Shown: one piece after another, positions 14,101 to 64,000 of the stretch
Numbering within the stretch: position 1 is the stretch's first letter
How the letters are laid out: each line of letters opens with the position of its first letter
Assembly (NCBI RefSeq): GCF_033568475.1
Contig: NW_027331831.1
Span: 7,068,001-7,132,000 of the forward strand
DNA from: Henckelia pumila
Taxonomy: Eukaryota > Streptophyta > Magnoliopsida > Lamiales > Gesneriaceae
Length of the DNA stretch: 64,000 bases
Direction: 5' to 3'
Translations under genes and position numbers: made by a program
Notes under the pieces: generated by a model
Told to the model about the DNA's origin: nothing
The model's database searches: none
The model's input: the letters and a program-made list of their open reading frames with translations, nothing else

Positions 14101-15783
14101 ACTGTCTGCACTTCAGACTAATGAAATATCTCATATGATTCAAGAGTGTTGTTCATTGAGTTTTACGCTCAAGCACAAGAAAGGGAGGAATGAGATTCGT
14201 TTGTATACTATTCTATCTGAGCCGGTATTGTATTCTCGGATCAGAGATGCTCAGATATCTGATGTTAAGACTCAGCGATTGGCACGTCTAGCCAATGGAG
14301 TTAATACATCTGGATTCCATTTTCAGGCAGATGGTTTATTGTGCCTATCCAATAGAGTGGTTGTACCTAATGTTGCGAAACTCAGGAATGATATTCTATC
14401 TCAAGCTCACAGGAGTCGATTATCAGTTCATCCTGGAAGTATGAAAATGTATAAGGACTTGCAAACTAGATTCTGGTGGAAGGGGATGAAGCGAAGTGTG
14501 TATCAATTTATTTCGAGATGTTTGGTTTGTCAACAGGTCAAGGCTGAACATCGACGACCAGGTGGATTACTGCAGAATCTTGAGATTCCCGAATGGAAGT
14601 GGGAGCACGTGACTATGGATTTTGTTACCCACTTGCCTATGACTTCACGTCAGTGTGATGCTATCTGGGTTGTCGTTGACCGTTTGACAAAATCAGCACA
14701 TTTCATTCCTTATAACCGGGAGTATTCTTATGATCGCATGGCACGCTTATATATCCAGGAGATTGTGCGATTACATGGGATTCCAGTGAGTATTGTCAGT
14801 GATAGAGATCCGCGATTTACTTCACGTTTTTGGGGTAGTTTTCAGGAAGTGTTGGGTACCACTCTGAGTTTGAGCACTGCATATCATCCGGAGACTGACG
14901 GGCAGTCAGAGCGCACTATTCGTACGCTGGAGGATATGCTACGTTCTTCTGTCATGGATTTTGGCTTATCTTGGCAGGATCAGTTACCTTTGATTGAATT
15001 TGCCTACAATAACAGTTATCATCGTAGTATTGATATGGCACCTTTCGAGGCATTGTATGGTCGACGGTGTCGTACTCCATTATTCTGGAATGAAGTCGTG
15101 GAACGGCAAGTCGAGGGTCCTGAATTGGTGCAGCAGATTGTAGACAAGGTAGATTTGATCAAGCATAAGATCAAAGTTGCTCAAGATAGACAAGCCAGTT
15201 ATGCGAATATTCGCCGCAGGCCACTTCAGTTTGAGCCTGGTGAATATGTTTTTCTGCGAGTATCACCTTTCAGAAAGGTGATGAGATTTGGTGTGAAAGA
15301 CAAGTTGTCTCCTCGTTACGTTGGGCCTTTCCAGATACTGGAGAAGATCGGAGATGTTGCTTATCGTTTGGCTTTACCGCCATCTCTTTCCAGTACACAC
15401 AATGTTTTTTATGTGTCGTTGCTTCGACAGTACATAGCTGATGAATCTCATGCGATTCAATCTACTGATATTCAGCTAGAGCCAGATCTGTCTTTTGTTG
15501 AACGACCAATCTGTATCCTAGACAGGAAGGAGAAAGTTCTTCGGAACAAGACTATACCACTTGTGATGGTACAGTGGCAGCGCCGAGGCGTTGAAGAAGC
15601 AACTTGGGAAACTGAGAGTCGTATGCGAGCAGAATATCCTGAGTTGTTTGCTTTGTATTTTTGATTACCATATAAGATGTAATTACCGTTGTTGTAATAA
15701 GACATGATTTGATGTTTCATATTGTTATCTTGATTTATCTTTAGATGTTATTTCGCGGACGAAATATCTAAAGGTGGGGAGAA

Positions 15784-29517: not shown

Positions 29518-31995
29518 ATGGAAGCCGGATCTGGGAGCGGTAATTTTTCATTTCTTGGAAGTTGCCGCTATGCCAAAGGTCTTTATTTGATTTCAATTCC
29601 TAATGGTGCAACTCTATTGGAGATATTCCAGAGTCTAGGACGAAAATGTAATGCTATTAATCCTGAATTAACGGTATTGCAATACATAGCACCTCATGAG
29701 AAGATTGCAGTGACTCTGAATGAAGATGATGACGTCCGAAACATGATAAACCTTCATATTTGTTTGAAATTGAATATGATCAGTTTGAGAGCAGTTGCAA
29801 AAGATGATCAGAGTCAGGGTAACATAAATGCTGAAAGGTAATATTTTTGCATTGTTATTTTGGTCTAAGTGCAAGGTTTCAGAATTTACAAACTTCATGA
29901 TATTTTTTGCTGGTTATTTAATTTTGTACAGAACATGAATTTTTTTTTCATTGTTTATTTTGTATATTAGTTAATTAATGATATTTAAAACGTGTTATAG
30001 TTTTTAATGCAAGTTAAATTTTTTATAAACGAATATTGAGTTGTTTGCTCATGTATTCAATTGATTTGTATTTGAAATGGTAAGGTTTGATTTCGATGAT
30101 GACGTTTCTACGGACGGAGGTCACGAGCTTGAAGTTTGCACTTTAAGCAATTCTATCGATTCTTGGGTTAATTGCATACGTGGTGACGGCCAAACATTTA
30201 AAGATGCTGCAGAATTCAGGATTTGTCTTAAAAACTATGCTATTGCCACAAGAAAGTCATTTTCTTATAGGAAAAATGAAAGTGAAAAGATCTTAGTTGT
30301 TTGCAGCGAAGAAAAATGTCAGTGGAAAATTTATGTCTCAAAACATAAATCTGACAATTCATTCGGCATAAGAAAATGCAACTTAAGCCATAGTTGTGGG
30401 GACGATAATTTGCGAACTAGAGGTCATCCTAAAGCTAATGCATCTTGGGTAGCTAACTTGGTGAAGGAGAAGTTAAGGGGAGAGCCATCATATCGTCCAT
30501 GTACAATGATGAAGGACCTTCAAAGAGATTATGGTGTAGAACTTGAGTATCATAGAGTTTGGGCAGGCAAAGAAATGGCAATGCATGATATTCATGGGAC
30601 TAATGAGGGATCGTATGATAAGTTGCGATGGTATTGTCAAAATGTTAAAGAAACAAATCCCGGGAGTTTTGTTGAATGTGAAATTGATCCGATGACACAA
30701 AAATTTAGACGATTGTTCATATGTTTTCACGCATGTCTTGTTGGTTTTATTAGTGGTTGTCGACCATTAATATTTTTGGATGGAACTCACATTAAGAACA
30801 AGTACAAAGGATGTTTATTAGTCGCTGTGTCCAAGGATGCAAACGATGATATTTTTACACTGGCATATGCAGTTGTGGATGCAGAAAATGATTCTAACTG
30901 GGAATGGTTTTGCTACCATTTAAAAAATGTCTTGGCATCCCAATACATCATGGTATTCCATAGGTATACTTTTTTCTCTGATCGACATCCTGGATTGATC
31001 AAGGCAATTAAATCTGTGTTCCCTGGTAGTTATCATTCTTATTGTCTGAGACATCTGGTCGATAACTTCGTCAAACAGGTTTGTCGTATATTGATTTAAC
31101 AATATTTCAGTCATATTTTTATTATTTTCTATCAATAGGTTTTTATTTTTAAATTTTATTTTTGAAGGTGTTGCGTAGGTATCCTCTCCATAACAAAAAA
31201 CATTGGTCTTCTGTCTTGAAAAAAGCAGCTTACACCCCATTAAGACATGAGTTTACTCAACATATAAAAAGTATAACTGATTCAATGCCGCTCGCCCAAG
31301 ATTTTCTTGTGAGCTCATCCCCAGAAAATTGGGCCAATTCTTTGTTTTTGGGTGAGCGATGGGGTGTCATCAACAATAATATTGTTGAAAGCTGGAACAA
31401 TTGGGTAAAACCTGCGCGCCATCTACCTATTGTGGCTATGGTAGATAATATACGCATTCAAATAATGACCATAATGCAGCAAAGACGAGAAAAAACATTG
31501 GAGATGACACGAGAACTAAGTCCAAGAAAGGAGAAGGATGTGTCGATTGCATATGGTAAATCTCGAACCTTAAAGGTTCTCAAGTCTTGTGGATCTCAGT
31601 TTGAGGTTGTAGATGGGGACAAAACTTTTGCAGTGGATTTAAATTCATGGCAATGTTCATGTCGAGCTTGGCAGATATATAGGCTCCCGTGCAAGCATGC
31701 TTGCGCATGTATAGAATCTAAGTCTCTATCTGTCTATCAATTCTGTGATGGATATTTTAAGGTGGGCATGTACCGCCAAGCTTACAAAGGAATCATTAAT
31801 CCCATTCCAACATCTAACATGAATGAGGGATATCTCGATGACGGACTTACCATTTACGCTCCTACAACCCGTAGCCAGCCAGGACGTAGAAGGACTAAGC
31901 GAATACCTTCTCAAGTTGAACAACGTGTGAAAAAGTGTGGGAGATGTCATGGACAAGGACATAATAGACGAACATGCAAAGAACCAGTGCCATAA
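29518..31995 (+). CDS. MULE transposase (MuDR family)
   Basis: Three exons, 29518-29837, 30085-31078 and 31168-31995, give an uninterrupted 713-residue protein. The first exon encodes a PB1-like N-terminal domain common in plant MULE transposases. Residues about 115-330 hold the MuDR DNA-binding region (CQWKIYVSKH, a WRKY/GCM-like zinc fold). The DDE-type core shows LDGTHIK (Asp339), FSDRHPGL (Asp406) and NNIVESWNNW (Glu512). A SWIM zinc finger follows (CSC at 601-603, then CKH), and a CxxCxxxxHxxxxC knuckle (CGRCHGQGHNRRTC) lies near 695-708. The protein would cut at the TIRs and leave 9-bp duplications, matching the ends seen here. Frame, splice sites and catalytic residues are all preserved, so this may be a functional or recently functional copy. 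Confidence 0.9.
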
Positions 31996-32388
31996 TTGGT
32001 TTGATTGACACAAACAATAATACCATATATTTTCATTCGATTATACTAATTGTTTTGTGATGTTATTAATTTTTAAAATTCTATATCAATCTCTCATTTA
32101 TTGTTTTCATTTCTTGCAGGCACAAGAGTTTACTAAACCAAGAAAGTAGCAGTGAATGTTGTGGAAAAAGAGCTACAAGATCTGGTGGCATTTTGTGATT
32201 TAATTTTTGGTTTGAAATCAACAAGAATACTGTGTTGGTATAAGACGTTGTTGGTTGTGTTAGACTTTAAAATCTTTAAGCGGTTGAACAAAACGGTGGA
32301 TGTTGTTTGCGTAATTATTTTTGAGACATGCATTATGAAATGGTCGGTGTATTGATGATTAAACTCTTATGTTAAGTGCTGATTTCAA
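31996..32388 (+). other. 3' flank of the transposase
   Basis: No gene. It probably holds the transposase 3' UTR, then passes into the minisatellite. A short open frame (32152-32355) has no family signature. Confidence 0.4.
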
Positions 32389-35300
32389 ATTATATGTCGT
32401 GTTTTCGATGTTTTATACTAAATTGGATCCATATTGTGCCAATACTTGGAGTATTTGTTCCGGATAAAAGGTGTTTTATGCTCATATTCGACATATGTTT
32501 TTTTTTCCTTGAAATATCCAAATAACACATTAAGGATTATTTTTCCATCACCGTAGACTATTAATTAGAATCAAGTGTCCAAGAGAAGATTAAATATTTT
32601 TTCCAAATTATATGCCGTGTTTTCGATGTTTTATACTAAGTTGGATCCATATTGTGCCAATAATTGGATTTTTTGTGCCAGATAAAAGGTGTTTTATGCT
32701 TATATTCAACATATAGTTTTTTTTTCTTGAAATATCCAAATAACACATTAAGGAGTATTTTAGCATCACCGTAGAGTATTAATTAGAATCAAGTGTCCAA
32801 GAGAAGATTAAATATTTTTTCCAAATTATATGCTGAGTTCTCAATGTTTTATACTAAATTAGATCCTTATTGTGACAATACTTGGAGTATTTGTGCCGGA
32901 TAGAATGTTTTTTATGCTCATATTCTACATATGTTTTTTTTTCCTTGAAATATCCAAATAACACATTAAGGAGTATTTTAGCATCACCTAGAGTATTAAT
33001 TAAAATTATGTGTCCAAGAGAAGATTATATATTTTTTCCAAATTATATGTCGGGTTCTCGATGTTTTATACTAAATTGGGTCCATATTATGCCAATAATT
33101 GGATTTTTTGTGCCAGATAAAAGGTGTTTTATGCTCATATTCAACATATGGTTCTTTTTTCTTGAAATATCCAAATAACACATTAAGGAGTATTTTAGCA
33201 TCACCGTAGAGTATTAATTAGAATCAAGTGTCCAAGAGAAGATTAAATATTTTTTCCAAATTATATGCTGAGTTCTCGATGTTTTATACTAAATTAGATC
33301 CTTATTGTGCCAATACTTGGAGTATTTGTGCCGGATAGAATGTTTTTTATGCTCATATTCTACATATGTTTTTTTTTCCTTGAAATATCCAAATAACACA
33401 TTAAGGAGTATTTTAGCATCACCTAGAGTATGAATTAGAATTATGTGTCCAAGAGAAGATTATATATTTCTTCCAAATTATATGCCGGGTTCTCGATATT
33501 TTATACTAAATTGGGTCCATATTGTGCCAATAATTTGATTTTTTGTGCCAGATAAAAGGTGTTTTATGCTCATATTCAACATATGGTTCTTTTTTCTTGA
33601 AATATCCAAATAACACATTAAGGAGTATTTTAGCATCACCGTAGAGTATTAATTAGAATCAAGTGTCCAAGAGAAGATTAAATATTTTTTCCAAATTATA
33701 TGCTGAGTTCTCGATGTTTTATACTAAATTAGATCCTTATTGTGCCAATACTTGGAGTATTTGTGCCGGATAGAATGTTTTTTATGCTCATATTCTACAT
33801 ATGTTTTTTTTTTCCTTGAAATATCCAAATAACACATTAAGGAGTATTTTAGCATCACCTAGAGTATTAATTAAAATTATGTGTCCAAGAGAAGATTATA
33901 TATTTTTTCCAAATTATATGTCGGGTTCTCGATGTTTTATACTAAATTGGGTCCATAATATGCCAATAATTTGATTTTTTGTGCCAGATAAAAGGTGTTT
34001 TATGCTCATATTCAACATATGGTTCTTTTTTCTTGAAATATCCAAATAACACATTAAGGAGTATTTTAGCATCACCGTAGAGTATTAATTAGAATCAAGT
34101 GTCCAAGAGAAGATTAAATATTTTTTCCAAATTATATGCTGAGTTCTCGATGTTTTATACTAAATTAGATCCTTATTGTGCCAATACTTGGAGTATTTGT
34201 GCCGGATAGAATGTTTTTTATGCTCATATTCTACATATGTTTTTTTTTTCCTTGAAATATCCAAATAACACATTAAGGAGTATTTTAGCATCACCGTAGA
34301 GTATTAATTAGAATCAAGTGTCCAAGAGAAGATTAAATATTTTTTCCAAATTATATGCTGAGTTCTCGATGTTTTATACTAAATTAGATCCTTATTGTGC
34401 CAATACTTGGAGTATTTGTGCCGGATAGAATGTTTTTTATGCTCATATTCTACATATGTTTTTTTTTTCCTTGAAATATCCAAATAACACATTAAGGAGT
34501 ATTTTAGCATCACCGTAGAGTATTAATTAGAATCAAGTGTCCAAGAGAAGATTAAATATTTTTTCCAAATTATATGCTGAGTTCTCGATGTTTTATACTA
34601 AATTAGATCCTTATTGTGCCAATACTTGGAGTATTTGTGCCGGATAGAATGTTTTTTATGCTCATATTCTACATATGTTTTTTTTTTCCTTGAAATATCC
34701 AAATAACACATTAAGGATTATTTTTCCATCACCGTAGACTATTAATTAGAATCAAGTGTCCAAGAGAAGATTAAATATTTTTTCCAAATTATATGCCGTG
34801 TTTTCGATGTTTTATACTAAGTTGGATCCATATTGTGCCAATAATTGGATTTTTTGTGCCAGATAAAAGGTGTTTTATGCTCATATTCAACATATGGTTC
34901 TTTTTTTCCTTGAAATATCCAAATAACACATTAAGGAGTATTTTAGCATCACCGTAGAGTATTAATTAGAATCAAGTGTCCAAGAGAAGATTAAATATTT
35001 TTTCCAAATTATATGCTGAGTTCTCGATGTTTTATACTAAATTAGATCCTTATTGTGCCAATACTTGGAGTATTTGTGCCGGATAGAATGTTTTTTATGC
35101 TCATATTCTACATATGTTTTTTTTTTCCTTGAAATATCCAAATAACACATTAAGGAGTATTTTAGCATCACCTAGAGTATGAATTAGAATTATGTGTCCA
35201 AGAGAAGATTATATATTTTTTCCAAATTATATGCCGGGTTCTCGATATTTTATACTAAATTGGGTCCATATTGTGCCAATAATTTGATTTTTTGTGCCAG

Positions 35301-37212
35301 ATAAAAGGTGTTTTATGCTCATATTCAACATATGGTTCTTTTTTCTTGAAATATCCAAATAACACATTAAGGAGTATTTTAGCATCACCGTAGAGTATTA
35401 ATTAGAATCAAGTGTCCAAGAGAAGATTAAATATTTTTTCCAAATTATATGCTGAGTTCTCGATGTTTTATACTAAATTAGATCCTTATTGTGCCAATAC
35501 TTGGAGTATTTGTGCCGGATAGAATGTTTTTTATGCTCATATTCTACATATGTTTTTTTTTCCTTGAAATATCCAAATAACACATTAAGGAGTATTTTAG
35601 CATCACCTAGAGTATGAATTAGAATTATGTGTCCAAGAGAAGATTATATATTTTTTCCAAATTATATGCCGGGTTCTCGATATTTTATACTAAATTGGGT
35701 CCATATTGTGCCAATAATTTGATTTTTTGTGCCAGATAAAAGGTGTTTTATGCTCATATTCAACATATGGTTCTTTTTTCTTGAAATATCCAAATAACAC
35801 ATTAAGGAGTATTTTAGCATCACCGTAGAGTATTAATTAGAATCAAGTGTCCAAGAGAAGATTAAATATTTTTTCCAAATTATATGCCGTGTTTTCGATG
35901 TTTTATACTAAGTTGGATCCATATTGTGCCAATAATTGGATTTTTTGTGCCAGATAAAAGGTGTTTTATGCTCATATTCAACATATGGTTCTTTTTTTCC
36001 TTGAAATATCCAAATAACACATTAAGGAGTATTTTAGCATCACCGTAGAGTATTAATTAGAATCAAGTGTCCAAGAGAAGATTAAATATTTTTTCCAAAT
36101 TATATGTTGAGTTCTCGATGTTTTATACTAAATTAGATCCTTATTGTGCCAATACTTGGAGTATTTGTGCCGGATAGAATGTTTTTTATGCTCATATTCT
36201 ACATATGTTTTTTTTTTCCTTGAAATATCCAAATAACACATTAAGGAGTATTTTAGCATCACCTAGAGTATGAATTAGAATTATGTGTTCAAGAGAAGAT
36301 TATATATTTTTTCCAAATTATATGCCGGGTTCTCGATATTTTATACTAAATTGGGTCCATATTGTGCCAATAATTTGATTTTTTGTGCCAGATAAAAGGT
36401 GTTTTATGCTCATATTCAACATATGGTTCTTTTTTCTTGAAATATCCAAATAACACATTAAGGAGTATTTTAGCATCACCGTAGAGTATTAATTAGAATC
36501 AAGTGTCCAAGAGAAGATTAAATATTTTTTCCAAATTATATGCCGTGTTTTCGATGTTTTATACTAAGTTGGATCCATATTGTGCCAATAATTGGATTTT
36601 TTGTGCCAGATAAAAGGTGTTTTATGCTCATATTCAACATATGGTTCTTTTTTTCCTTGAAATATCCAAATAACACATTAAGGAGTATTTTAGCATCACC
36701 GTAGAGTATTAATTAGAATCAAGTGTCCAAGAGAAGATTAAATATTTTTTCCAAATTATATGTTGAGTTCTCGATGTTTTATACTAAATTAGATCCTTAT
36801 TGTGCCAATACTTGGAGTATTTGTGCCGGATAGAATGTTTTTTATGCTCATATTCTACATATGTTTTTTTTTTCCTTGAAATATCCAAATAACACATTAA
36901 GGAGTATTTTAGCATCACCTAGAGTATGAATTAGAATTATGTGTTCAAGAGAAGATTATATATTTTTTCCAAATTATATGCCGGGTTCTCGATATTTTAT
37001 ACTAAATTGGGTCCATATTGTGCCAATAATTTGATTTTTTGTGCCAGATAAAAGGTGTTTTATGCTCATATTCAACATATGGTTCTTTTTTCTTGAAATA
37101 TCCAAATAACACATTAAAGAGTATTTTAGCATCACCGTAGAGTATTAATTAGAATCAAGTGTCCAAGAGAAGATTAAATATTTTTTCCAAATTATATGAT
37201 GAGTTCTCGATG
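32389..37212. repeat. 218-bp minisatellite, 22 copies, inside the MULE
   Basis: Counting the anchor TTTTATACTA gives 22 units at 217-220 bp spacing, from 32411 to 36995. Three variants occur: A (TTAGATCCTTATTG), B (TTGGGTCCATATTG with CAATAATTTG) and C (GTTGGATCCATATTG). The order is mixed at the left, then A-B dimers, and at the right two C-A-B trimers (35901-36556 and 36557-37212) sharing private changes such as GTGTTCAAGAG and TATGTTGAG. The array ends about 100 bp from the ULP1 stop codon. No coding function is seen. Confidence 0.95.
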
Positions 37213-37310
37213 TAGTGCAAACATTTGTTAGTCAAGCTAATATATCAAATAATTCCAGCAAAATGGTTTCATCCATATAAGGAAATCTTCATATATTTCT
37301 AATGAAATCT

Positions 37311-41812: not shown

Positions 41813-42462
41813 TATATATATATACATTGGCGGGACGGGTTCGGGGCGGGTTTGGCCAAACCCGAGGTCCGCCTCGAACCTGCTTGTGGACCCGTTTAGC
41901 TTGTCTAGAGTGGGTTTGATGCGGGATCGGATTTAGATCTGATCATTGTCATCCCGGGTACACTTTCCAAAAATAATAATATTAATTTTCCAAAAAAAAA
42001 AAAAGTTTGAAGTCGCATCATATAGGGGCACAAAAATCGCATTTTAGATGGCCACAAAAAAGGACAAGTACTGTTCGTGTTGGAGAAGCATATTTTATCA
42101 TATTTTAGTACACTTTGAAATCTAACTCATCGTGCCCAACAGTGGGTTATTTACTGTACCTCTGTCTCTTTCTCTCTCTCTCTCTAAAAACCCTCAGAAA
42201 TCCCAGCTTTAATTTACCTGAAGAACGTCCTGAAGAAGGTACTTTTTTCTTGTTTTTTGTTTCAATTTCAAAACCAATACACTCCTTGTTTTCTCAAAAT
42301 TATCCACGCACGGAATTTTCTTGAAGATGCCTTTGTTACAAATGCGTTCTCGGTAGATTTGTGTTTATCTACCATTAGGGTTGTGTGAATCTTTTCCAAT
42401 TTTTTGTAAAGTTGAGTTCTTTTTGAAAAAGTAGAAATTTTGCTTGTTCAGATATTTTGGTT
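41813..42462. promoter_or_regulatory. Upstream region of the PWWP gene
   Basis: Contains the GC-rich repeat half (41828-41955) and then the probable promoter and 5' UTR. A CT-rich microsatellite at about 42166-42187 is a common 5' UTR feature in plants. The exact transcription start is not visible. Confidence 0.45.
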
Positions 42463-45400
42463 ATGGAGGATGAGAAAGGTGATGTTGGCCTAGTATGTAG
42501 TGCTGGTGTTTCAGGGTCACCCGTTCTTGTTAACTTAGCCGGTGAAACATTAAGGGAAGTTATTCAGAATGAGAAACAGACCGAGGACTCCTACGAAGAG
42601 GGGGATGGGGGAGAAGTGATGGTGGAAATTGTTGGGTCTGATGTGTTTGTCGATGGTGTGAGTGGTCAAAACGAAGGTGTCTATGTGGCCGGAGAAGCCG
42701 GGGATTTGGAGGGCCATACGTCTGAGAATCAAGATTTTCCGGGGGTTATGGACGCCTCTCATAAAGGAGGCAGAAGTGAGTTGGAGGAAACCAAGGTGGT
42801 ACTCATGGTGGATGAACCAAAACATGTTGCTGAAAATCAAGAAGCCGAGTATGGTGAATCTGCTACCGAATCACCTTTGATTGGTGTTGGTGTTGGTGTT
42901 GGTGTTGGTGTTGGTGTTGGTGTTGGTGTTGTAAACGATGACATTTGCAATCATGGAATTTCGTCAACGGGTAAGTTGTCGTCAGTGACACCAGACTCTG
43001 TTACCGAACAGTCTGAGGAAGTTATAGTGAGTACATCTGCCATGGTGATTGATGAGAAGGTGGCTATAGACGAAACAGCTGATAAGGCCAGTAGTTCTGA
43101 CATTGGAACAACTGAAGTTTTGGGAACTCCGGTGGAAGCTGCTATTGAAGGAAAAAATGATTTAGGCAAAGAAAAGGTGTTTTACCCTGCTAAAGATTCT
43201 GCTCCTTGTCCGTATCCCTTGGATGCTGATTCTGTTATTGTAAATGAGGCAACTAATGCTGAAGCTTGTGACCAAGTTGCACCTTCTGATTTTACTCTTA
43301 ACTCTAATGGTGAAAACTCTGCTGTTGAGGAAGTTTTATTTAATTCTAGTTCAGTTGGCACCATTGATCATGGTGATATTGATCCTTGTCATTCTGTGGA
43401 TTTGAATCTCTCGGTATCAGTTCCAGATGTTGCAGCTCCATTATCTAGTGAAGAATTTTTATCTAGTGGTAGGTTGAAAGGTGAAAATTTGAGAGCTAAT
43501 GCAGAAAGTGCGAGCACCAATGGAGGAAAAGAGACCATTGAAGGAGAGGCTATTGCCACAGAAACGGAGAACCTGATTCTTAAGTTGGACACCCTTGTAC
43601 CTGAAGATCAAGATAATAATCAAGTTTGTATAGAAGATTTTGATTGCATGCAATGTGATGTAACTAATGGGATCGATGGGATTTCAAAGGCTGGTGTAGA
43701 ATCTTCTTGTGAATACACTATTTCCACTGAAAAACAGGAAGCTATTGTCATGGAATGTGATGTAACTGATAGGATCGATGGTATTTCAAATGCTGGTGTA
43801 GAATCTTCTTGTGAATACAATGTTTCCAATGAAAAACAGGAAGCTATTGCCATGGACTCTGATGATGTATTGGATTTCAAAGATGGAGATTTAAGTTTTG
43901 CAAACAAGAATGAATGCCTGAAGACTAACAGAGACATAGAAACTGGAGTGGTCCAGAAAGACCATCTATTCTCAATTGAACCAACTCAAGTGGATGGTGG
44001 GGTAAATACTGCTGCAATAAAGGAAGATAAGAGCCTCACGATTGGAATTCAACCTGATATTGAGGATAATCTACAGAATATAACAAGCTCGAGTAATGTA
44101 GGAGATGAGGAAATCGTAGAAACAGATTCTGGGAGGTATGCAGACCAACCTCTAACTGGCACATCAGATGCTGAAGTAAATAATGACGAGAAATTTGCAT
44201 TATCTCAACCGAAAGTTTTGGAGGGGGATGTAGCTTGTGAAAGAAGTGAGGAGATTGATGGCAGTAATGTAGCAAAGGCATGTGTCTCTGATATGGTTAC
44301 TTCTAATGTTGAGGTAAACAGTTCTGGAGGAGCAGATGATAATTCTGGAAAAAATAATGGGGTTCATATAATGGCGGACCATATTTCTGAAACTGCACTC
44401 ATGAATGTGGACAAGGAGATAGAATTTGATCAAACATATGATGAAGAAAAGGAAGTGGGTTACAGGGAGGAGCCTGCGTTCGGAACTGAAGAGCCTGCTT
44501 ATGAGAGTGAAAATCCAAAGTTTTTGATCGAGGAACCAGTAAAGTTTGCAAGCTCCGTGCGATTGAACCAACCAGGTTATTTATCACCACCAGAAAATGA
44601 GGGTACATTTTCCCTCTCAGATTTGGTCTGGGGTAAAGTTAGAAGCTATCCCTGGTGGCCTGGACAGATATTTGATCTTGCAGATGCATCAGAAAGGGCT
44701 GTTAAATATTATAAGAAAGATTCTTATTTGGTAGCATATTTTGGAGATCGAACCTTTGCTTGGAATGACGAATCTGTGTTGAAGCCTTTCAGGCCTCATT
44801 TTTCCCAGATCGAGAAGCAAAGTAATTCTGAAGCATTTCAAAACGCCGTTGACTGTGCCTTGGAAGAGATTTCTAGACGTGTAGAATTGGGTCTAGCATG
44901 TTCTTGTGTAGCAGAAGATGATTATGACAAGATTAAAACTCAGATTGTAGAGAATACTGGGATACGTGAAGAATCAAGTCTAAGAACCGGTGTGGATCAA
45001 TCTACTGGTCCTTCTGCTTTTGAACCGGATAAACTTCTTGAGTATGTTAGAGATTTAGCACCTCGTGCTTCTTTGGGAGCTGATCGATTGGATCTTGTTA
45101 TCGCTCGGGCTCAGTTGTCTGCATTTTGTTGCTTTAAGGGCTACCGCCTACCGACTGTATTCCCCTCATCCGGGGAATTACTGGAAAATGACAGAGAAGA
45201 AACTAGTGAAGATATGGTCATTTCCCACAAAAGCAAGCACATTCCAAAAGACAGCTTTCAGTCTAGGAAGGAGAGAAGCTTGACTGAAATAATGGGTGAT
45301 GGTGAAGATGAATTAGTTGCAAAAGATGTGAGCAAATCGATATCCAGTAAAAAGCGGAAAGCGCTGGATCCTCTGGCTGATGGGTCAGAGAAAAGGCTAG

Positions 45401-46332
45401 CTGTTCCTGCAGCAAAAGTAACTATTTCAGCCAATCCAAAACCTTCGTTTAACATTGGTGAATGCATCCGTAGAGTAGCCTGCCAACTAACAGGATCAAC
45501 ATCTATGGTCAAGGGTCTCAATGATGAAACAGTAAATGATGGTTCTCTGAAGGCATTTGAACAATCTGAAAGGCAGAGTATGGATGTTCCAAGGGATTCT
45601 TCTTTAAACGAGATGCTATCTCAGCTTCAACTGGTGGCACAGGAACCCAACAAACGGCATAACTTCCTAAATACAGTCATTACTTTCTTCAAGGGTTTTA
45701 GAAGTTCAAGTGCTTTGAATAGACGTGGTAGAAAGAAAAGAGCTGCTCCAGCAGCTGGAGGATCAGCTGAAGACTTTGAATTTGATGATGTCAATGACTC
45801 CTATTGGACAGACAGGATCGTCCAGAACTATTCTGAGGAACAATTGTTGCATAACTGCGAGAACGGGGCTGACAATCTTCAAGTAGTGCCCTTTGATGGA
45901 GAAAAATCAGCGAAACCAGGCCGTAAATCACATTCTAGAAAGAGGCTTTCCACCCGGTCCTATCCAACCATCATTGCAGATTCAGATGAGAATGTTAGAC
46001 GGAAGAAGCAAGAATCCTCACCTGCGGAGCTTATATTGAACTTTGAGCAGAGAAATTGTGTTCCTTCTGAAATAAATCTTAATAAAATGTTCAGGCGGTT
46101 TGGGCCTTTGATGGAATCTGAGACAGAAGTTGATCATGAGTCTGGTCGAGCAAAAGTGATATTTAAGCGGGGTTCTGATGCTGAAGTTGCTCACAATAGT
46201 GCAGAAAAGTTCAACATATTTGGGCCACTGCTTGTTAATTACGAGATAGGCTACTCGCCAGTAATCTCAGTAAAGATTTCCCCCCTTGCTCTTCCACCAC
46301 CGTGTCAGGAAGATCCAAATTTGATGTTGTAG
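42463..46332 (+). CDS. PWWP-domain chromatin protein (PDP-like)
   Basis: A single exon of 1,289 residues starting at the ATG at 42463. The first 700 residues are acidic and low in structure. The PWWP domain lies at about 715-800 (LVWGKVRSYPWWPGQIF, then VAYFGDRTFAWND), followed by the conserved plant region with ALEEISRRVELGLAC and CCFKGYRLP. Basic stretches (SSKKRKALD, RRGRKKRAAP) look like nuclear signals. An RRM-like segment closes the protein (LILNFEQRNCVPSE, MFRRFGPL, AKVIFKRGSDAEVA; about 1191-1270). PWWP domains bind methylated histone tails and DNA; Arabidopsis PDP proteins with this layout act with FVE/MSI5 on FLC chromatin. It could be any PDP paralogue, so no symbol is assigned. 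The acidic half contains two lineage-type repeats, annotated separately. Confidence 0.88.
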   Translation: MEDEKGDVGLVCSAGVSGSPVLVNLAGETLREVIQNEKQTEDSYEEGDGGEVMVEIVGSDVFVDGVSGQNEGVYVAGEAGDLEGHTSENQDFPGVMDASHKGGRSELEETKVVLMVDEPKHVAENQEAEYGESATESPLIGVGVGVGVGVGVGVGVVNDDICNHGISSTGKLSSVTPDSVTEQSEEVIVSTSAMVIDEKVAIDETADKASSSDIGTTEVLGTPVEAAIEGKNDLGKEKVFYPAKDSAPCPYPLDADSVIVNEATNAEACDQVAPSDFTLNSNGENSAVEEVLFNSSSVGTIDHGDIDPCHSVDLNLSVSVPDVAAPLSSEEFLSSGRLKGENLRANAESASTNGGKETIEGEAIATETENLILKLDTLVPEDQDNNQVCIEDFDCMQCDVTNGIDGISKAGVESSCEYTISTEKQEAIVMECDVTDRIDGISNAGVESSCEYNVSNEKQEAIAMDSDDVLDFKDGDLSFANKNECLKTNRDIETGVVQKDHLFSIEPTQVDGGVNTAAIKEDKSLTIGIQPDIEDNLQNITSSSNVGDEEIVETDSGRYADQPLTGTSDAEVNNDEKFALSQPKVLEGDVACERSEEIDGSNVAKACVSDMVTSNVEVNSSGGADDNSGKNNGVHIMADHISETALMNVDKEIEFDQTYDEEKEVGYREEPAFGTEEPAYESENPKFLIEEPVKFASSVRLNQPGYLSPPENEGTFSLSDLVWGKVRSYPWWPGQIFDLADASERAVKYYKKDSYLVAYFGDRTFAWNDESVLKPFRPHFSQIEKQSNSEAFQNAVDCALEEISRRVELGLACSCVAEDDYDKIKTQIVENTGIREESSLRTGVDQSTGPSAFEPDKLLEYVRDLAPRASLGADRLDLVIARAQLSAFCCFKGYRLPTVFPSSGELLENDREETSEDMVISHKSKHIPKDSFQSRKERSLTEIMGDGEDELVAKDVSKSISSKKRKALDPLADGSEKRLAVPAAKVTISANPKPSFNIGECIRRVACQLTGSTSMVKGLNDETVNDGSLKAFEQSERQSMDVPRDSSLNEMLSQLQLVAQEPNKRHNFLNTVITFFKGFRSSSALNRRGRKKRAAPAAGGSAEDFEFDDVNDSYWTDRIVQNYSEEQLLHNCENGADNLQVVPFDGEKSAKPGRKSHSRKRLSTRSYPTIIADSDENVRRKKQESSPAELILNFEQRNCVPSEINLNKMFRRFGPLMESETEVDHESGRAKVIFKRGSDAEVAHNSAEKFNIFGPLLVNYEIGYSPVISVKISPLALPPPCQEDPNLML
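42883..42930 (+). repeat. GGTGTT hexanucleotide repeat coding for (Gly-Val)8
   Basis: Eight GGTGTT units lie in frame in the acidic N-terminal half of the PWWP protein. Length changes would keep the frame. Confidence 0.95.
43648..43851 (+). repeat. 102-bp tandem duplication in the PWWP coding sequence
   Basis: Two adjacent 34-codon units, each with CDVT, RIDGIS/GIDGIS, AGVESSCEY and EKQEAI, begin at 43648 and 43750. They are similar but not identical. Confidence 0.9.
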
Positions 46333-52185: not shown

Positions 52186-53583
52186 TTATGTTCCCTTTTT
52201 AAAATGTAAAAAAAAAATTAAAAAAAAATTGCTTCACCGCCCTGCCCCTCCTTGACCCGTGGCCCAAATGGGTCAGTCCGTTTCGGCACGCCTCTTGACC
52301 GGGCGACAAAATGATGACCCAACCTGCCCTTTTTTAATAGCGGGATGGGTTGGTCCGACGGACCAAACTCGAATCGACAAATCTAAGCACAACTTATTTA
52401 AATTCTTAGGAGTTTTTATTCTTTCTGTTTTTTCTTTAATTGGGAGAGAGATTATGTGACGCCCGGGGCTGATAAGAGGGTGAGGAGTGATCGTCAGTGT
52501 CAAGAGGTTGCACAAACAATGAGCGGCTCCTGGCAGACTTTTAGGCGAAGGAAGACATGAATGAACCAATATTGTGCCGGATTAATGAGAGGAATTTTAA
52601 GACTGTGTAGGTAGGAGAACACAATTGAGGAGGACTTAAAAAATTTGATAGATACTCCTCATATCACATAGGTGCATATTCTTTTTGGAAGTTCATCACA
52701 TAATAACTCAAGTGTACTTTACTTGGGACAATTATGAAATAGTTAAGTGTGCTTTACTTAAGATAATTATAAAATGTGTGATCCACTGGAAAATTTCTCA
52801 AAGTGCGTGGAGATAATCGTCGAATTTGACAAGTTATAGATTAACTAAAATTAGATATTTATCGAACGTAAAAACTTATACGAGATTCGAGACCATGATG
52901 AGTTATAAGCATGAGTAATTACTTTTTTGAAGTTTTAATTGAAATCCAATCCAACTACTAGAAATTTCTGCATTAATTAAATATACCCCACAATGTTGCA
53001 TTTTTTTTTTGTCTTTTTTGGCTATGCATTATCATTTTCAATTTTCTTTTGAAAGGTTGATTAACAGAGTAATGCTATATGTACAACGAAGTTTGTACAT
53101 CAATTTTTACAATACAAAAAATTCAATATAAAATTTTCATTTATCAAAATATTATTATACATTGAATATAAAATCTTGCGATATAATTAATAGTAGAATC
53201 TCATGACATAATTGTTGTAAATCGCTGTACATAATAAATATTTAGGGAAAATTGCTTTTTTGGTCCTTTATATTTGTCATTTTACGATTTCGATCCTCTA
53301 TGTTTTCATATTTCAGTTTTAGTTCTGCATGTTCTGATTTTTGGTACTTTATATTTGTTACTTTGTAATTTTAGCATTATTCTAATTAATGTTGTACTAA
53401 ACACAAAATTGACTCTCTTTTCTTAAAAAAAAACATAAAACATAAAGTTGACTCTTTTTAAAAAATAAAAAATACTTGAAAAGCTCGATTTAAACCCAAA
53501 TACTCTCAATTTATATTCGATTAGGCCAATTAGATTTAAATTAAAAAAATAATCGAATTTGATTTATTACATTTACATATTCA

Positions 53584-56643: not shown

Positions 56644-57722
56644 ATGGCTAAAACCGATAGCGCCGCCGCCGCGAGAAGGAGACCAGGACGTGAAGAGGGT
56701 GGAAAACATATTCGATACACCGATGAACAGATTAGGGTTCTTGAAGGAGTTTACGTGGAGTGCTCAAATCCGAATCGTTCTCAACGCGAACATTTAATTC
56801 ATCAACAGCCTACGTTGAACGGTATCGACAACAAGCAGCTCAAGATCTGGTTCCAGAACCGCAGGTGGAAACATTTTCTTCCATTTTTTTTTAAATTTTT
56901 ACTTTGAATGAAAATTTTTTGGTGTTACATTGGATTTTTTTTTTCCGTTTTTTTTTCTTCACGTGCTTCGATCTGTTTATTAATTACTAATTTACTATCA
57001 TTAATTTAATATTTTGATGATTTTAACGTGATGTTACCTATGTTTGCTAGTGTTTCCAAATTTTTTCAGCAGAAGTTGGTTAATATATCAAAGTTTCCAC
57101 TTTGATATTTATGTCGTATTTCAAGAAGTACATAATGTCTGATCAATTCTTTATAATTTTCAGGGGCTAAATGGTTCAGTTTTGAACTATTTAAAATTTA
57201 TAGAAAAAAACACGACCTATGAAATTCTTATATATGTAAGTATTACCTAAATACATAAAATTTATATTTCAGATGTATAAGTATGGATTAATAATAAACG
57301 CATCGAGAAAATACGGGAAAAAACTAAATTATATTTAAATTGATTTTTTTTTTTTTTACAATTGATCAGCATAAGAGTATATGTCGATTGTCGTTATTCA
57401 TATTAACTTTCTCTAAGAGAGTATAATTTTGAGGTAAAATAAAATTTTTTTAAAAAAAAAAAAGGGAAAAAGGAGCCATTTTGATTTACAAATAAACTTA
57501 TATAAACCAAAATTAATATTTTTTATTAATACAAATCGAAACTGAAAAAAAAACCGGAATATTTATAATTATACATATATAAACGAGGACGGCAAAAATT
57601 CATGATATAAAAACAAAAATCAACAAAAACTTTGAATATGCAACATTTGGATTGTGGATTAATAAAGCACACAAAAATTTATACAAGTGATTTATTAATT
57701 TCTTAAATTGAGTCACAATCGG

Positions 57723-57768
<46 letters not shown>

Positions 57769-59655
57769 ATATTTAGGATATGAGAATATTACACAATGTG
57801 AGTTAAATAATCCATATATTTGCAAAACATATAAAGTCTATAATATCGTGTACTACTGGCTACATATTCCCTACATTTTTGGATCGTGTTAATCTTTATT
57901 TTCTATTTCAGATTTAATTTGTCAAATTTCCGTATTACTCTGCAGTCATTCTCTATTTCATAATTTTAATATGTTTTCCGCATGGTGCTGACATATATAT
58001 AGTAACACATCAGCATTCTTGTGAAAAAATATACCAATTGTTTTTCTTCATTTGATCATTTGTTTTTACATTATCTTTGCTCCATATATATGTATCCCTA
58101 GATGCCGCGAAAAGCAGAAAAAGGAACATGAGGAGATTTTGGCAGAGAACCAGAAACTAAATGTGGCCAACAAGTTGCTAAGGGAAGAGAGCAATGCCTT
58201 GCTCAAAAGGGTAGCGGAACTCGTACGTGATAATGACCGTTCGCGGGGCAAACTCCATGCTGTATGTTATACTAGTATCGTTCACACATATTGAAAAAAA
58301 TATATAAAAAAATTTTCAAAATTAGTTTATATATATATAAAAAAAATTATACAGATTACTTTGATACAATTTCGGTCTTTTTATGACAATATTGTCGTCC
58401 GAGTGGTCCAATTTTTTTAAAATTTGTTACACCTATTAATTTTGGATTAGTTTGATATTGAAATCCTAGATGGGATATCTATACTATATTATAATATTTG
58501 ACACCCTTATAAAAACTGTTTTGCCCCTTAATTGCAGCCAAATTTTCAGGTTGTCGTTTCTTCCATTTTCTCTTCAATTAAAAATTTAACTACTCACTCA
58601 CATGCATTTCCGAAACACAAAATTTTAATATTATACATTATATTTCACACGCAACGCGTGTGCTACATAACTAGTATTAATAATATTCCTGGCTCCACTG
58701 TTGAATATTGTGCTGATAAATTTATTGTAATAGACATTTTTGTTATAATGAATGTTAAATCAAATATGTGTAAATTTGATATGTCTGCAGTCTTTCTGTA
58801 TTCGATGGCCCCCCTCTGTGTTTAAAATTTTTCTAGGGGAAAATAGTTTTTTTTGTTTGTTTTGTTAACTTGTCCAATATTTTTTGGTTTAGTCCATTAA
58901 ATTTTTAAATTTTGGTTTTGGTACACTAAATTTTAATTTTCGGTGATTTTGATCCAACTGCTGATGTGACACTGAAAAACTGATATGACATCGGAAAATG
59001 ATGACATGACATCGGATAATGCTGACATGTCATGTTGCCACATAAGCAGTTGGACCAAAATCACCGAAAATTAAAAGTTAATGTATCAAAACCAAACTTT
59101 GAAAAGTTAATTGACCAATTAAAACAAAAAAAATGGACAAGTTAATGGATAAAAAAAACATTTTTCCCTTTTTCTTGTGAAGTTATACACTCCATTTTCA
59201 TGTTTGAAATATATATATACGCAAAAACATGAATTTTACTCACTAAATTAGTTTAATAATATATAAATTAATAATTGTGTTGCAGGTTACTGCGACTAGC
59301 CCACGGGTCTCCGAGCTGCCTCGGGTTCTCTGGCCTCAGCCATCCATGAATGCTGATAACAACAAAGGGTATATATGTGCATATGCAGCATACATATATA
59401 CAAGAATGGACCATATATATATGAAATAACTTTTGTTATAATCAACATGATCGATTTTCTAGTAACTTGTAATCGGCCTTTTTCATGTACATGCTTAATG
59501 CTTATAGACTTGTGGTTCTGGCCGACGAAACTCGGAACGAATTCCTCTCTAAAGCTACTGGTTCTGCTATCAACTGGCTTCCTTTTCCCGTGCAAGATCA
59601 GGTTCTAATTAAGTTGTAACTTCGCATGGTATTATCTATTGTTTTTTTTACGTGA

Positions 59656-59692
<37 letters not shown>

Positions 59693-59705
59693 CAACTCCA
59701 ACCTA

Positions 59706-59747
<42 letters not shown>

Positions 59748-62700
59748 TTGAAATTTTCGACATGTGACGAAAGGGAGCTGGCTGTGGACTAGCCTTTTGT
59801 TGCATGCTATATTTGTTCTCCGGGTTAACTTAGGTTTAATTCCTAGATAAAAAATGCCCATGCACGTTTTACTGATCAATCCAATTATTAGAACTGTTAA
59901 AATCGACTGGTGGAGCGAGCCGACTCGTAGCCCGTCACAATCCACTGTTTGGCAGGACGTGGTGGCGGGTGAACCCAGAGGATCCAACCTGTTTCGATTC
60001 AACCGTCACTTTCCTTTTTTAATTAAATTCGTTTTTCAGGTGCATGGTCCCGTCTCGATTGGTGGAGTTTATGTCTCATATGGTTGCGCTGGAGTTGCAG
60101 CACGGGCATGCACCGTAGTTCCTTTCGAACCTCTCAAGGTACGCGACCATTCGAACTTCAAGACACTTTTTTTTATAACATGTATTATATTTTTTTGTCA
60201 TTTTGTCGGTCAATTTACAGTCTCTTAGTCTACTATTTTGTACTTTTATTTCAATTTTAATTATTTATCGTCTCTGCTGAGGCGACACCAAAAAATGATG
60301 ATATACCTTTCACACCGATAATTGCTGATATGTCATCACTTTGCTGAAAAATTACTAATTAAGTTCAATGTTTTCGTGATAGCTCATTGAAATTCTCAAA
60401 GATATATGCTCATGGTCTCCAAAATGTCGAAAACTAGACGTTGTCGCCATATTTCCTGCGAAAAACTGGGGAACCATTGAACTAGTTTATACACAGGTCA
60501 GAAAATATATAGTGTAATTGGAACATATATTCTACAGTATACGATACACCTATCGAACACGAAACCGAAGGTTACGGTGACGTTTCGACGTCGTCGTGCA
60601 TGTGCTTGGCTTGCCACATGAAGTTCTCTAACACAATTTGATTGTGAACAGTATTATGCTCCAACCACCTTGGCTTGTGCTCGAGACTTCTGGACATTGA
60701 GATACACTTCGATTTTGGACGATGGAAGCTTCGTAGTACGTACAATTACTTTTAGGGAAAATTGTTTTTTTAGTCTCGTATGTTTGTCACTTTGCGATTT
60801 TGGTCTTCTATATTTTTAGATTTCAGTTTTAGTCCGTTATCTTTATTTTTTTTGGCAATTTTAGTTATTTTTATGATGTAGCGCTAATGTGACACTAATA
60901 CAGTGCTGATGTGGAGCTGACGTGTATAGTGTCACGTAATCATTTTCGAATAAAAAGGACTGAAATTGCCAAAAATCGAAACACGTACACTAAAACTGAA
61001 ATATGAAAACATAGATGACCGAAATCGCAAAGTGACAAACATAAATGTCCAAAATTACGGTTTTCCCTTACTTTTATTTTGTTTACCTTCAATATAGCTA
61101 TATATACTTGTTGATTTATTGTATTTTTTGTGCAACTTTTTATATATTCATGGTATTTTTAAGGTATGTGAGAGGTCAATTAATGGTGGTTCCGATGTTC
61201 CAAGCTCACCTGTTGCAATAGAATTTGTGAGAGGCAAGAAGTTGGCTAGTGGCTACTTGATTCGCCCCTGTGAAGCTGGATCAATGTTGAATCTAGTTGG
61301 GCACTTTGATTTGGAGGTTCGTGATATATATTCTGTGGGCACGTAAATATTTATTATTTATCGAAATGAACAATCATCGGATCTTCGATTCAAAATTTAA
61401 AATTTGATTTTTACGAGACGGATGATAGGGGTGCCAACGAACCAAAAACTGCGTGTAATTCTACTTCACACTAGGGATCATGTACATATGTGCTTAATTA
61501 TTTTAGATTTAAACATGAGTTTGATTTGTTTTCTCCAAGTTTATGGGGAAAATATTTTTTTTGGTTCATTAATTTGTCCATTTTTCGGTTTTGGTTCATT
61601 AACTTTGCAAATTTTTGTTTTGGTACACTAACTTTTAGTTTTCGGGTATTTTCGTTCAACTGCTGATGTGGCACTGAAAAATGCTAATGTGGCATCGGAA
61701 AATGATGGCGTGTCTAGCTGCCACGTTAGCAATTAGATCAAAATCACTGAAAATTAAAAGTTAGTGTACCAAAACCAAAATTTGAAAAGTTAATGAACCA
61801 AAGCCAAAAAATAAACAACTTATTGGACAAAAAAAACATTTTCCCATTGATATATCTATACAGCTAATGCTCAAGCTACATTTTCTGCTTTGACAGCTTG
61901 TTTCGTTTTCAAATATATGACTCCCTCTATCTCAATCATTTAAGCTATATTTTTTTTTATTGATCCCAAATATATAGTCAAGTTTTCATATTTAATGTTC
62001 TCTTTCCAACTTTTTTTTACCAATTTACCCCTATTAAATTAATATCATTAACTATTATAATTTATACAATAATTTTATTCTATTAAAATCTTCATTAAAT
62101 AAGAGTAAAATGAGAAATTGCTTTCTAAAATTTACTCGCTCAAACATCAATAAAATACATTGCAATACTTTGTGAACAAATGCTAATGAGAAGGACATAC
62201 AATTGATTTATCCAAAATTTATTATAAATAATAATTTAATGGTAAAATAACAAAATTGGTCTGATAAGTTGGTTTATGTTGACTTTTAGTCCTCGAATTG
62301 GTCAATATTTAGTCGTAGTATCTTCGTAATATCTTATGATAAATCAGTAATATTCAATGTCATATCATTATGTTCAGCTACATTATCCGCATATATGCGA
62401 AAATTGGACTAAAAACACTAAGACCAAATGTTGACCGATTGGAAAACCAAAAATCGATCTAGTGCTATTATACTTATTGCAGGCAGCATCTGTTCCCGAG
62501 CTTGTGCGACCCCTCTACGAGTCACCTGAACTCATTGCCAAGGAGATGATTTTAACCGTAAGTATTCATGTATACTTCATTTACTCAACTTCCTATTAAA
62601 TCTTTGATTGTAATCCAACATTTTCCTTTGTTTTTTTTTCCATGCCTCGCTAATTGTACTGTATTCAAGAAAATGTTTGTTTCAAGTTCAATACAAACTA

Positions 62701-64000
62701 ATTACAGGCATGTTTTTTTCCCCCCTTTATAAGGCGCTTCAATATATTGGTCACCTGACAAGTAAGGCAATTCCTGGCAAAACGAAAAATCCACATGACA
62801 GAGAAGAACCTGCCTTTGTAAAATCTCTTGGCCAAAGACTAAGCAGGTAAGCCTGCTGAATCATTTCTCAAATCGTTATCTCGATTCGTTGCAGCATGGT
62901 TTTCTAGTCTTGCAGACATGCATGAGGTTTAAGCTCAAATGGCTACTTTGTAAAGGTTTTGATATCACCTTAAAATGTGACTCTAGTACAGTTGCATGAT
63001 GTCTTGGGAGTTATGAGAACTGAGAAAGTTTTGATCTTGGGCCTTTACTATTTTGAGATAAGCAAAAGGCACTAGTGTCTAGTACTGTCAAAACGGGCTA
63101 GGTCCATTTTGTCTCATAAAATAAGTTGGCTGAGTTGACAATTTCCCGACCCGTAAATATTGCAGGCCAGCCTGCTAGCTTGTTCGGACGGTACTACTAG
63201 TGAGATGCTAAAAAAAACATTAGTGTGACTGCAGGAGGAGTACACGTGTATGAGTAGAAGAACTCAATCATATGCTTTTACATAAGCTGCTAATTCTGAG
63301 TCATGCCATGAGGCTTTAGTTGATGAGATTATGTGCTTGAGCACGTTTTTCCATATATATATTTTCTTGTTTCATTTTGTTTAGGGGCTTCAATGATGCT
63401 GTCAATGGTTTTAATGAAGATGGGTGGCAATTGATGAATATGGTTTCCCCTAAAGGTGCCATTGTATCCATGAAGCGAACTAATAACATGGGATCTGCTA
63501 CGAATTATGATGGTGTCATTTGTGTGAAAACAACTGTGCTACTTCAAGTGAGTTATTGTCTTATTACTTTTCGACATTGATTAAAACAAGTTTCGCCCAT
63601 TTTGTTCACATTAGTATCGCATAAGCGTGTCTTTCAACGAGTGTATATGTGTTTATTGATGGCAGAACATCTCCACTGCAAAGCTGGTGGGACTGCTGAA
63701 AGATCACCGTTCTACTTGGATGGATTTCAACTTTGATGGCAAGCCTAAAGCAATCATCAAGGCTCCTTACTTTGGATATCCAGGAGTGAACACGCACGAT
63801 TTCTCTGATAAAGCTGTGCTACTTGGCCACACCAATCATGAGGATGAGGTTGGTTGATTCGATTTGTGAAAAGTTGAGCTAAATGTTGGATGCATGTGGT
63901 CTGATTCTTGTTTCTAATTTAGGTGTTGGAAGTTATTCGGTTCGAAAGGTTTTCACATCTCCAACACATTGGCTTTTCTGGGGAATTGTATCATTTGCAG
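56644..64000 (+). CDS. Divergent class III HD-ZIP transcription factor, 3' part off the window
   Basis: Thirteen in-phase exons are visible (56644-56864, 58102-58261, 59286-59368, 59508-59601, 60040-60138, 60383-60496, 60652-60735, 61164-61316, 62483-62557, 62734-62846, 63385-63547, 63666-63848, 63923-64000), 540 residues so far. Residues about 20-75 are the homeodomain (QLKIWFQNRRCREKQ), followed by a leucine zipper (LLREESNALLKRVAEL). The START lipid-binding domain runs from about 150 (EFLSKATGSAINW, GCAGVAARAC, PTTLACARDFWTLRYTS, SGYLIRPCEAGS) with downstream HD-START homology (LSRGFNDAVNGF, LLKDHRSTW). Intron positions match REV/PHB/ATHB8-type genes, but many otherwise fixed residues differ. 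The exon 4/5 junction, normally the miR165/166 site, reads PVQDQ|VHGPV instead of PGMK|PGPDS. No stop interrupts any exon. The family controls polarity, meristem and vascular development. The C-terminal MEKHLA domain lies outside the window. Confidence 0.88.
57727..57766. repeat. AT microsatellite in HD-ZIP intron 1
   Basis: About 20 AT units inside the 1.2-kb first intron, which otherwise shows nothing recognisable. Confidence 0.9.
58478..58674 (+). mobile_element. Nonautonomous mini-Helitron, 197 bp, in HD-ZIP intron 2
   Basis: The 5' end is A then TCTATACTATATTATAAT; the 3' end has a perfect 7-bp stem CACACGC-AAC-GCGTGTG (58646-58662), then CTACATAA and CTAG followed by T. All Helitron termini rules are met. 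Intron 2 spans 58262-59285. Confidence 0.88.
58837..59168. mobile_element. Foldback MITE in HD-ZIP intron 2, 332 bp
   Basis: Long imperfect inverted repeat from GGGAAAATAGTTTTTTTTG to its inverse ending TTTTTCCC, with central CTGATGTGACACTGAAAAA units. The flanks TTTTTCTAG and TTTTTCTTG form a 9-bp duplication with one mismatch. Confidence 0.8.
59657..59743. repeat. AT/GT microsatellites in HD-ZIP intron 4
   Basis: AT then GT repeats (59657-59693) and a second AT run (59708-59743). Confidence 0.9.
60755..61067. mobile_element. Foldback MITE in HD-ZIP intron 7, 313 bp
   Basis: Inverted ends GGGAAAATTGTTTTTTTAG and, from the right, GGGAAAACCGTAATTTTGG, with TTTGTCACTTTGCGATTT in both arms. 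Flanked by perfect 9-bp repeats TTACTTTTA (60746-60754 and 61068-61076). Confidence 0.9.
61554..61850. mobile_element. Foldback MITE in HD-ZIP intron 8
   Basis: Same family as the 58837 element (GGGGAAAATA start, CTGATGTGGCACTGAAAAA centre, ACATTTTCCC end). No clear target duplication is left. Confidence 0.7.
62250..62463. repeat. Degenerate foldback repeat in HD-ZIP intron 8
   Basis: TGACTTTTAGTCCTCGAATT and, inverted, TTGGTCTTAGTGTTTTTAGTC pair imperfectly around AT-rich DNA. Probably an old MITE; the ends are uncertain. Confidence 0.45.

Follow-up and report, generated by a model that had tools for sequence, protein, structure and literature searches.

Canonical class III homeodomain-leucine zipper (HD-ZIP III) mRNAs that escape pairing with microRNA (miRNA) 165/166 (miR165/166) cause gain-of-function, and loss of the pairing site in them disrupts leaf and vascular polarity; the site is a standard case of a deeply conserved plant miRNA target. 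How, then, should an HD-ZIP III gene be read in which the site is missing? Such a gene is located in a 64,000-nucleotide stretch of the Henckelia pumila genome (Gesneriaceae, Lamiales), hereafter the window (G000:C77:7068001-7132000 of an 884.7 Mb assembly), and a first-pass annotation had described it as a maintained, specialised paralogue whose exon 4-exon 5 junction encodes PVQDQ/VHGPV (the slash marks the intron). We consider it highly probable that the gene represents an ancient REVOLUTA (REV) paralogue, here called REV2, that was retained as a protein-coding gene after a single loss of its miR165/166 site in the Lamiales common ancestor.

Gene model and domain organization

The gene occupies positions 56644-64000 on the plus strand, with 13 exons inside the window separated by 12 introns, all of them GT-AG:

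56644..56864, plus: exon 1; N-terminal part from the start codon through most of the homeodomain; open frame, donor gtggaaa, break shared with canonical gene L047 (tblastn segments compared by eye)
58102..58261, plus: exon 2; end of homeodomain and leucine zipper; ag/gt borders, zipper spacing in the alignment
59286..59368, plus: exon 3; linker, with an internal ATG that starts the deposited isoform X2 (P0002)
59508..59601, plus: exon 4; first part of the START domain, with the 5' half of the former miR166 site at its 3' end
59602..60039, plus: intron 4; separates the halves of the former site, gt..ag borders
60040..60138, plus: exon 5; carries at its 5' end the 3' half of the former site (TGGTCC left)
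60383..60496, plus: exon 6; START
60652..60735, plus: exon 7; START
61164..61316, plus: exon 8; START
62483..62557, plus: exon 9; end of START
62734..62846, plus: exon 10
63385..63547, plus: exon 11
63666..63848, plus: exon 12
63923..64000, plus: exon 13; cut by the window end, continuing in G000:C77 to about window position 65693 (MEKHLA region)

The coding sequence (CDS) spliced from the window comprised 540 open codons without a stop, as the first-pass annotation had read the exons around the junction, and its claim of splicing at the positions usual for the family agreed, by eye, with the exon breaks of L047. The 3' part of the gene was located outside the window, where the rest of the deposited protein P0002 ('REVOLUTA-like isoform X2' of H. 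pumila) aligned to the DNA exon by exon up to C77:7133693 (about window position 65693), giving a complete product of approximately 829 residues on a single 16.3 Mb contig. In a protein search, P0002 was 100% identical to the window product over 73% of the query. It starts at the ATG in exon 3, hence without homeodomain and zipper, and no full-length H. pumila record was present among the matches listed. A START-MEKHLA form lacking the homeodomain, as in P0002, may also be made. A search of the genome with P0002 (E 0.001) found no second REV2-type copy. Three inverted repeats of about 250-315 bases, resembling miniature inverted-repeat transposable elements, were observed in the introns (58880-59127, 60754-61068 and 61547-61845), two of them related to each other.

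All domains of the family were detected. The product contained a homeodomain (PF00046, residues 24-79, 48.1 bits against a cutoff of 22.9), directly followed by a leucine zipper whose heptad leucines line up with those of canonical REV in an alignment by eye, the first being Ile, and a START domain (PF01852, residues 160-350, 111 bits). The C-terminal MEKHLA domain (PF08670, precomputed for P0002) is encoded past the window end, in locus L009. The AlphaFold model of P0002 (mean predicted local distance difference test score, pLDDT, 71.9) matched solved START domains. Its START domain was mostly at pLDDT 85-94, and the segment corresponding to the former site was modelled as a loop (residues 37-43, pLDDT <50); weaker stretches exist elsewhere, residues 146-158 also being <50.

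The miR165/166 site is missing from the exon 4-exon 5 junction

Exon 4 ends at 59601 (...CCC GTG CAA GAT CAG/gt) and exon 5 starts at 60040 (ag/GTG CAT GGT CCC GTC), so that the junction encodes PVQDQ/VHGPV and carries no miR165/166 pairing site of the kind that lies over the PGMK/PGPDS exon junction. The first-pass annotation had noted a surviving GGTCC core and one extra codon. The core is indeed there, as TGGTCC at the 5' end of exon 5; the alignment to the canonical peptide placed two extra codons, not one, between the conserved Trp and Ser, while Primulina has one.

We scored matches to the 21-mer miR166 with our own gapless, TargetFinder-like penalty, and compared duplex energies with that of the canonical target stretch. 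No gapless position at the junction scored under 12, and the best score anywhere in the 540-codon CDS was 12.0, on the minus strand. The minus strand also carried the best gapless match of the whole window (8.0), at about 52358-52378 and approximately 4 kb upstream of the ATG, and intron 4 supplied none of the window's best six matches. The RNAduplex energy at the junction was -14.4 kcal/mol, compared to -44.1 for a perfect site, and an energy as low was reached by 28 of 77 80-nt segments taken from the CDS, some of which overlap the junction. Pairing energy at the junction does not differ from the gene's own background, and the first-pass reading of it as lacking a recognisable site held. An in-frame alternative donor, with exon 4 ending at 59589, was ruled out as a way of restoring the site (RNAduplex -13.7).

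The same genome retains miR166 and its other targets

A search with the sesame REV protein located at least six other HD-ZIP III genes in the genome. All six kept the site, with the junction ATGAAG/CCTGGTCCGG encoding GMKPGPDS, and scored 2.5-3.0 by the script applied to the window gene. The reverse complement of the miR166 core occurred at 14 genomic places, 13 of which contained a miR166-like 21-mer (0-2 mismatches; exact in 8). The 21-mer was held in a hairpin arm at 12 of these 13, with at most 1 of 100 shuffles, preserving base composition only, being as stable; the remaining place, L014, did not fold as such a hairpin. Since the site is kept in six other genes and 12 miR166-type hairpins are present, it is the target that was lost, not the miRNA.

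Other loci came to light in these searches. In L008 (G000:C3:182684910 and 182685132), two miR166-like hairpins, both with the exact mature sequence, lie 222 bases from each other and could belong to a single bicistronic precursor. L053 (G000:C3:128253783-128254208, minus strand) is a fragment of an HD-ZIP III gene in decay, interrupted by several stops and separate from the seven intact-looking genes. Dispersed fragments were also found: the REV MEKHLA exon gave 70-71% matches with frames of 98-101 codons at G000:C3:34430796, C2:151162238, C2:158752653, C3:118800622, C4:37167260 and C34:669798. The three that were read (L054-L056) were near-identical, with stops in the matched stretch, and two or three of them included the neighbouring exon and intron. 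They look as if a transposon had picked up part of a gene and dispersed it.

The site is missing in relatives across Lamiales

We assembled 199 related proteins from three homology searches (best 120 each), which are top-listed cluster representatives and not a random sample. Among these matches the site peptide was missing in 23, all of them from Lamiales by taxonomy, and PGMKPG was present in the other 176, including canonical REVs of Sesamum, Paulownia and Buddleja. The site-less proteins came from 13 genera in 9 families (one species looked up per genus): Henckelia, Primulina and Dorcoceras (Gesneriaceae); Perilla, Salvia and Phlomoides (Lamiaceae); Abeliophyllum (Oleaceae); and Paulownia, Sesamum, Erythranthe, Penstemon, Andrographis and Striga. 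The lineage has been duplicated again within Lamiales, in Paulownia (P0004/P0008) and Sesamum (P0013/P0011), with the site missing in both copies.

Proteins can be scored for the site independently of codon usage by taking the lowest miR166 penalty reachable by any synonymous coding of the peptide. With one bulge allowed, this lower bound at the junction was 6.5-10 in 23 of 24 site-less rows (window included) and 1-2.5 in 7/7 site-bearing rows. P0124 offered no anchor, the models of P0017 and P0018 do not contain the exon-5 stretch, and the window row and P0002 are one gene, leaving 20 informative genes. Over whole proteins, without bulges, the bound was 1-2.5 in all 148 site-bearing rows, compared to 4.5-7 in all 24 site-less ones. 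These bounds show that, in the scored site-less Lamiales rows, no synonymous coding would rebuild the site. In Cornus florida P0125 the peptide reads PGMKPGLD; the site that it allows would be slightly weaker (lower bound 2.5), which may represent an independent move towards losing it.

REV2 forms an old lineage outside core-eudicot REV

Trees were computed from hand-picked sets of 53, 42 (also with the site stretch removed) and 25 rows out of 171-199 proteins. The window row comprised 540 residues (exons 1-13) and the others were whole proteins, apart from the Andrographis protein and two ATHB-15 fusions, which we trimmed around the homeodomain. The window gene nested in HD-ZIP III, on the REV side as opposed to ATHB-15, in trees built without PHB-type proteins. 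The 19 site-less rows of the 53-row tree grouped as a single clade (100/100). With two ATHB-15 proteins as the root, the site-less rows of the 42-row tree nested in a clade that also held two Vitis species and, from Cornales, Nyssa and Cornus (100/100), and core-eudicot REV was a separate clade (100/100). The window gene thus falls outside the core-eudicot REV clade and inside REV2 (100/100), and is not a REVOLUTA orthologue.

Both clades persisted in a quick tree with the stretch around the site cut from every row (Shimodaira-Hasegawa-like approximate likelihood-ratio support 100 and 99, REV2 having 99), which rules out that the site columns alone created the REV2 clade. In the 25-row tree, Vitis and Cornales REV2 held together (100/100) with no Lamiales REV2 row present. 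Forcing Lamiales REV2 together with Lamiales REV cost 112.6 log-likelihood units (approximately unbiased test, p 2e-6), a test that shares the model's bias. The most economical history, and the one that fits best, is that the site was lost a single time, on the stem of Lamiales and before the Oleaceae row diverged. The first-pass suggestion of a specialised paralogue is supported by the ancient paralogous lineage in which the gene falls, and the loss was common to every Lamiales member of that lineage found.

REV2 evolves fast and keeps its frame and domains

Measured from the duplication node, REV tips lay at 0.10-0.21 changes per site, with a median of 0.13 and the three Lamiales REVs among them at 0.17-0.21, the four site-bearing REV2 tips at 0.32-0.54 (about 2.5-4 times the median REV) and the nine site-less REV2 tips at 1.16-1.81 (median 1.35). 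By these branch lengths, the site-less REV2 protein is estimated to evolve about tenfold faster than REV with frame and domains retained. The gradation suggests that relaxation began before the site was lost and then increased.

The first-pass view of a maintained gene was strengthened by the frame, which is open to the C-terminus. Neutral simulation predicted 6.6-7.1 stops on the window gene's terminal branch alone (0.24 changes per codon for the value of 7.1) and none was seen (Poisson P ~0.001). The WFQN motif was retained in all 18 Lamiales REV2 rows having a homeodomain, with residues after it altered in several: Ser stands in place of Cys, and His in place of Arg in one of the Sesamum copies and in Dorcoceras. 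Zipper spacing was retained in most Lamiales REV2 rows, those of Paulownia_b and Penstemon being cut short there, and in non-Gesneriad rows homeodomain and START were better conserved than zipper and post-START.

Constraint at the site itself differed between the two lineages. Mean pairwise identity over the nine site columns was 0.99 in 23 canonical rows, compared to 0.92 for the rest of START; in 19 Lamiales REV2 rows it was 0.41, compared to 0.69 for the rest, and 7 of 175 nine-column blocks were as low. The former site peptide is therefore one of the least conserved blocks of START in REV2 and almost the best conserved in canonical rows. Since a residue facing a gap was scored as a mismatch, a clade with insertions comes out as less conserved at those places. 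That the site peptide is variable and loop-forming in REV2 suggests, for HD-ZIP III proteins generally, that PGMKPGP is held by RNA pairing, and not by a need of the protein.

Alternative explanations

Fast evolution and a freely variable site peptide are also what a decaying pseudogene would display, its site having eroded along with the rest. We regard this as very unlikely, given the 540 open codons and 12 GT-AG introns with the remainder of P0002 matched exon by exon downstream, the absence of stops where about seven were expected, the better conservation of homeodomain and START, and the long proteins (682-935 residues) in 13 Lamiales genera, though deposited models favour open frames. 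The very long stem (0.59 changes per site) could also mean that REV2 is a Lamiales-specific fast duplicate of REV pulled to the base of the tree by long-branch attraction. This is very unlikely too, since the slower, site-bearing Vitis and Cornales paralogues form a REV2 clade by themselves and regrouping with Lamiales REV carries the likelihood cost given above. Nor do we give much credit to the idea that miR166 control persists, be it by way of a site elsewhere, a bulged duplex, an alternative splice form or a different partner miRNA. TGGTCC remains at the junction, an in-frame alternative donor exists, and three Sesamum proteins would permit a weak match elsewhere; against this, the bulged lower bounds at the junction are at least 6.5 and the scan of the window gene's CDS had nothing under 12. 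The junction peptide also varies within the clade, which makes one shared partner miRNA there unlikely. An assembly or annotation artefact, which the start of P0002 in exon 3 might suggest, is hardly credible: P0002 is identical to the window product over their shared part, the whole gene is on one contig, and proteins of 12 other Lamiales genera likewise do not have the peptide.

Several points weigh against an ancient REV2 that lost its site once and was kept. DNA was read for the window gene only, and the other Lamiales rows are deposited gene models, biased to open frames. Three Sesamum rows had a whole-protein bound of 4.5 far from the junction, which is a bound and not a site, known from proteins. 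The sister join of REV2 and core-eudicot REV, outside the Proteales and Ranunculales rows, had a support of 90/72 only and was not resolved in the 25-row tree, so that a duplication of core-eudicot age is plausible but not shown; the core-eudicot hexaploidy is a candidate for that age. P0002 is without homeodomain and zipper, and a full-length REV2 transcript is therefore a prediction. What we propose about the gene's function, including its expression and its release from miR166, we infer from the gene and protein sequences.

Other features of the window

Outside the gene, the following frames were noted in the window:

2990-4387, minus: PIF1 helicase frame, transposon-type
12920-15661, plus: Gypsy-type pol frame, transposon-type
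22753-23967, plus: reverse-transcriptase/RNase H frame among short broken frames, transposon-type
30065-31096, plus: Mutator-like element (MULE) transposase frame, transposon-type
42427-46329, plus: single PWWP-domain frame of 1301 codons, likely a neighbouring gene

About 22 copies of a 218-base unit, which match better as a 435-base dimer, form a tandem array over 32386-37213. Rfam and tRNA scans of the window gave no matches.

Proposed history and comparison with known systems

The REV2 protein seems to have begun drifting away from REV while it still had the site, and losing that site was probably tolerated since REV2 had by then stopped acting fully like REV. Its mRNA would not be sliced by miR166, in which case its site of action would have to be set by transcription and protein partners, with the promoter defining the expression domain and zipper dimers and LITTLE ZIPPER proteins as candidate partners. 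After the loss, REV2 could have diverged further into a specialised dimerising factor or a modulator of canonical HD-ZIP IIIs. Tentatively, and with somewhat more doubt than belief, we extend this to the proposal that Lamiales carry a natural, order-wide miR166-free HD-ZIP III which took up a new role after site loss and is run by transcription and partners alone, and that PGMKPGP is elsewhere held by RNA pairing, not protein function.

A lineage with one site loss and a gene kept order-wide would be a natural experiment on how HD-ZIP III proteins are restrained without a microRNA. It bears on the order of events, the branch lengths suggesting functional weakening before release, as well as on the share of protein conservation at miRNA sites that is really RNA conservation. 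Experimentally accessible Lamiales (Erythranthe, Sesamum, Salvia, Gesneriads) make the question testable.

The nearest mutant parallels are the phb-d, phv-d and rev-10d alleles of Arabidopsis, which like REV2 give an HD-ZIP III mRNA that miR165/166 should not recognise. They are recent dominant alleles of otherwise normal genes, whereas the loss in REV2 is order-wide and in a strongly diverged protein. Because the loss is old and common to Gesneriaceae and Oleaceae, the analogy with dominant mutants speaks for canonical genes and not for a present effect here. For such a canonical gene, overexpressed PHB with silent site changes gave a phb-d phenotype, according to a review (PMC7661387, citing Mallory 2004), and miR165/166 is described as targeting all HD-Zip III genes in PMC3017839. 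The HD-ZipIII genes of Rehmannia (PMC9336491) likewise represent the set of a genome that we place in Lamiales, but the portion of that paper seen reports miR166 complementarity and cleavage of one member and does not mention a site-less one. Among the open-access papers listed, no report of a site-less Lamiales HD-ZIP III was found, and as far as could be seen this regulatory loss in a known family is new.

The window gene shares with core-eudicot REVOLUTA the homeodomain, zipper, START and MEKHLA, the exon breaks of the same-genome REV-like L047, and 47-48% identity to most canonical REVs among the matches listed. It differs in its missing miR166 site and much longer branch, and L047 and L048 of the same genome are much closer to sesame REV, which makes the window gene a paralogue and not an orthologue. 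Closer to it are the REV2-type genes of Vitis (P0156, P0172), Nyssa (P0025) and Cornus (P0125), which fall in the same clade (100/100) on branches already longer than those of REV, but whose peptides, known from proteins alone, are still compatible with the site (lower bound 1-2.5).

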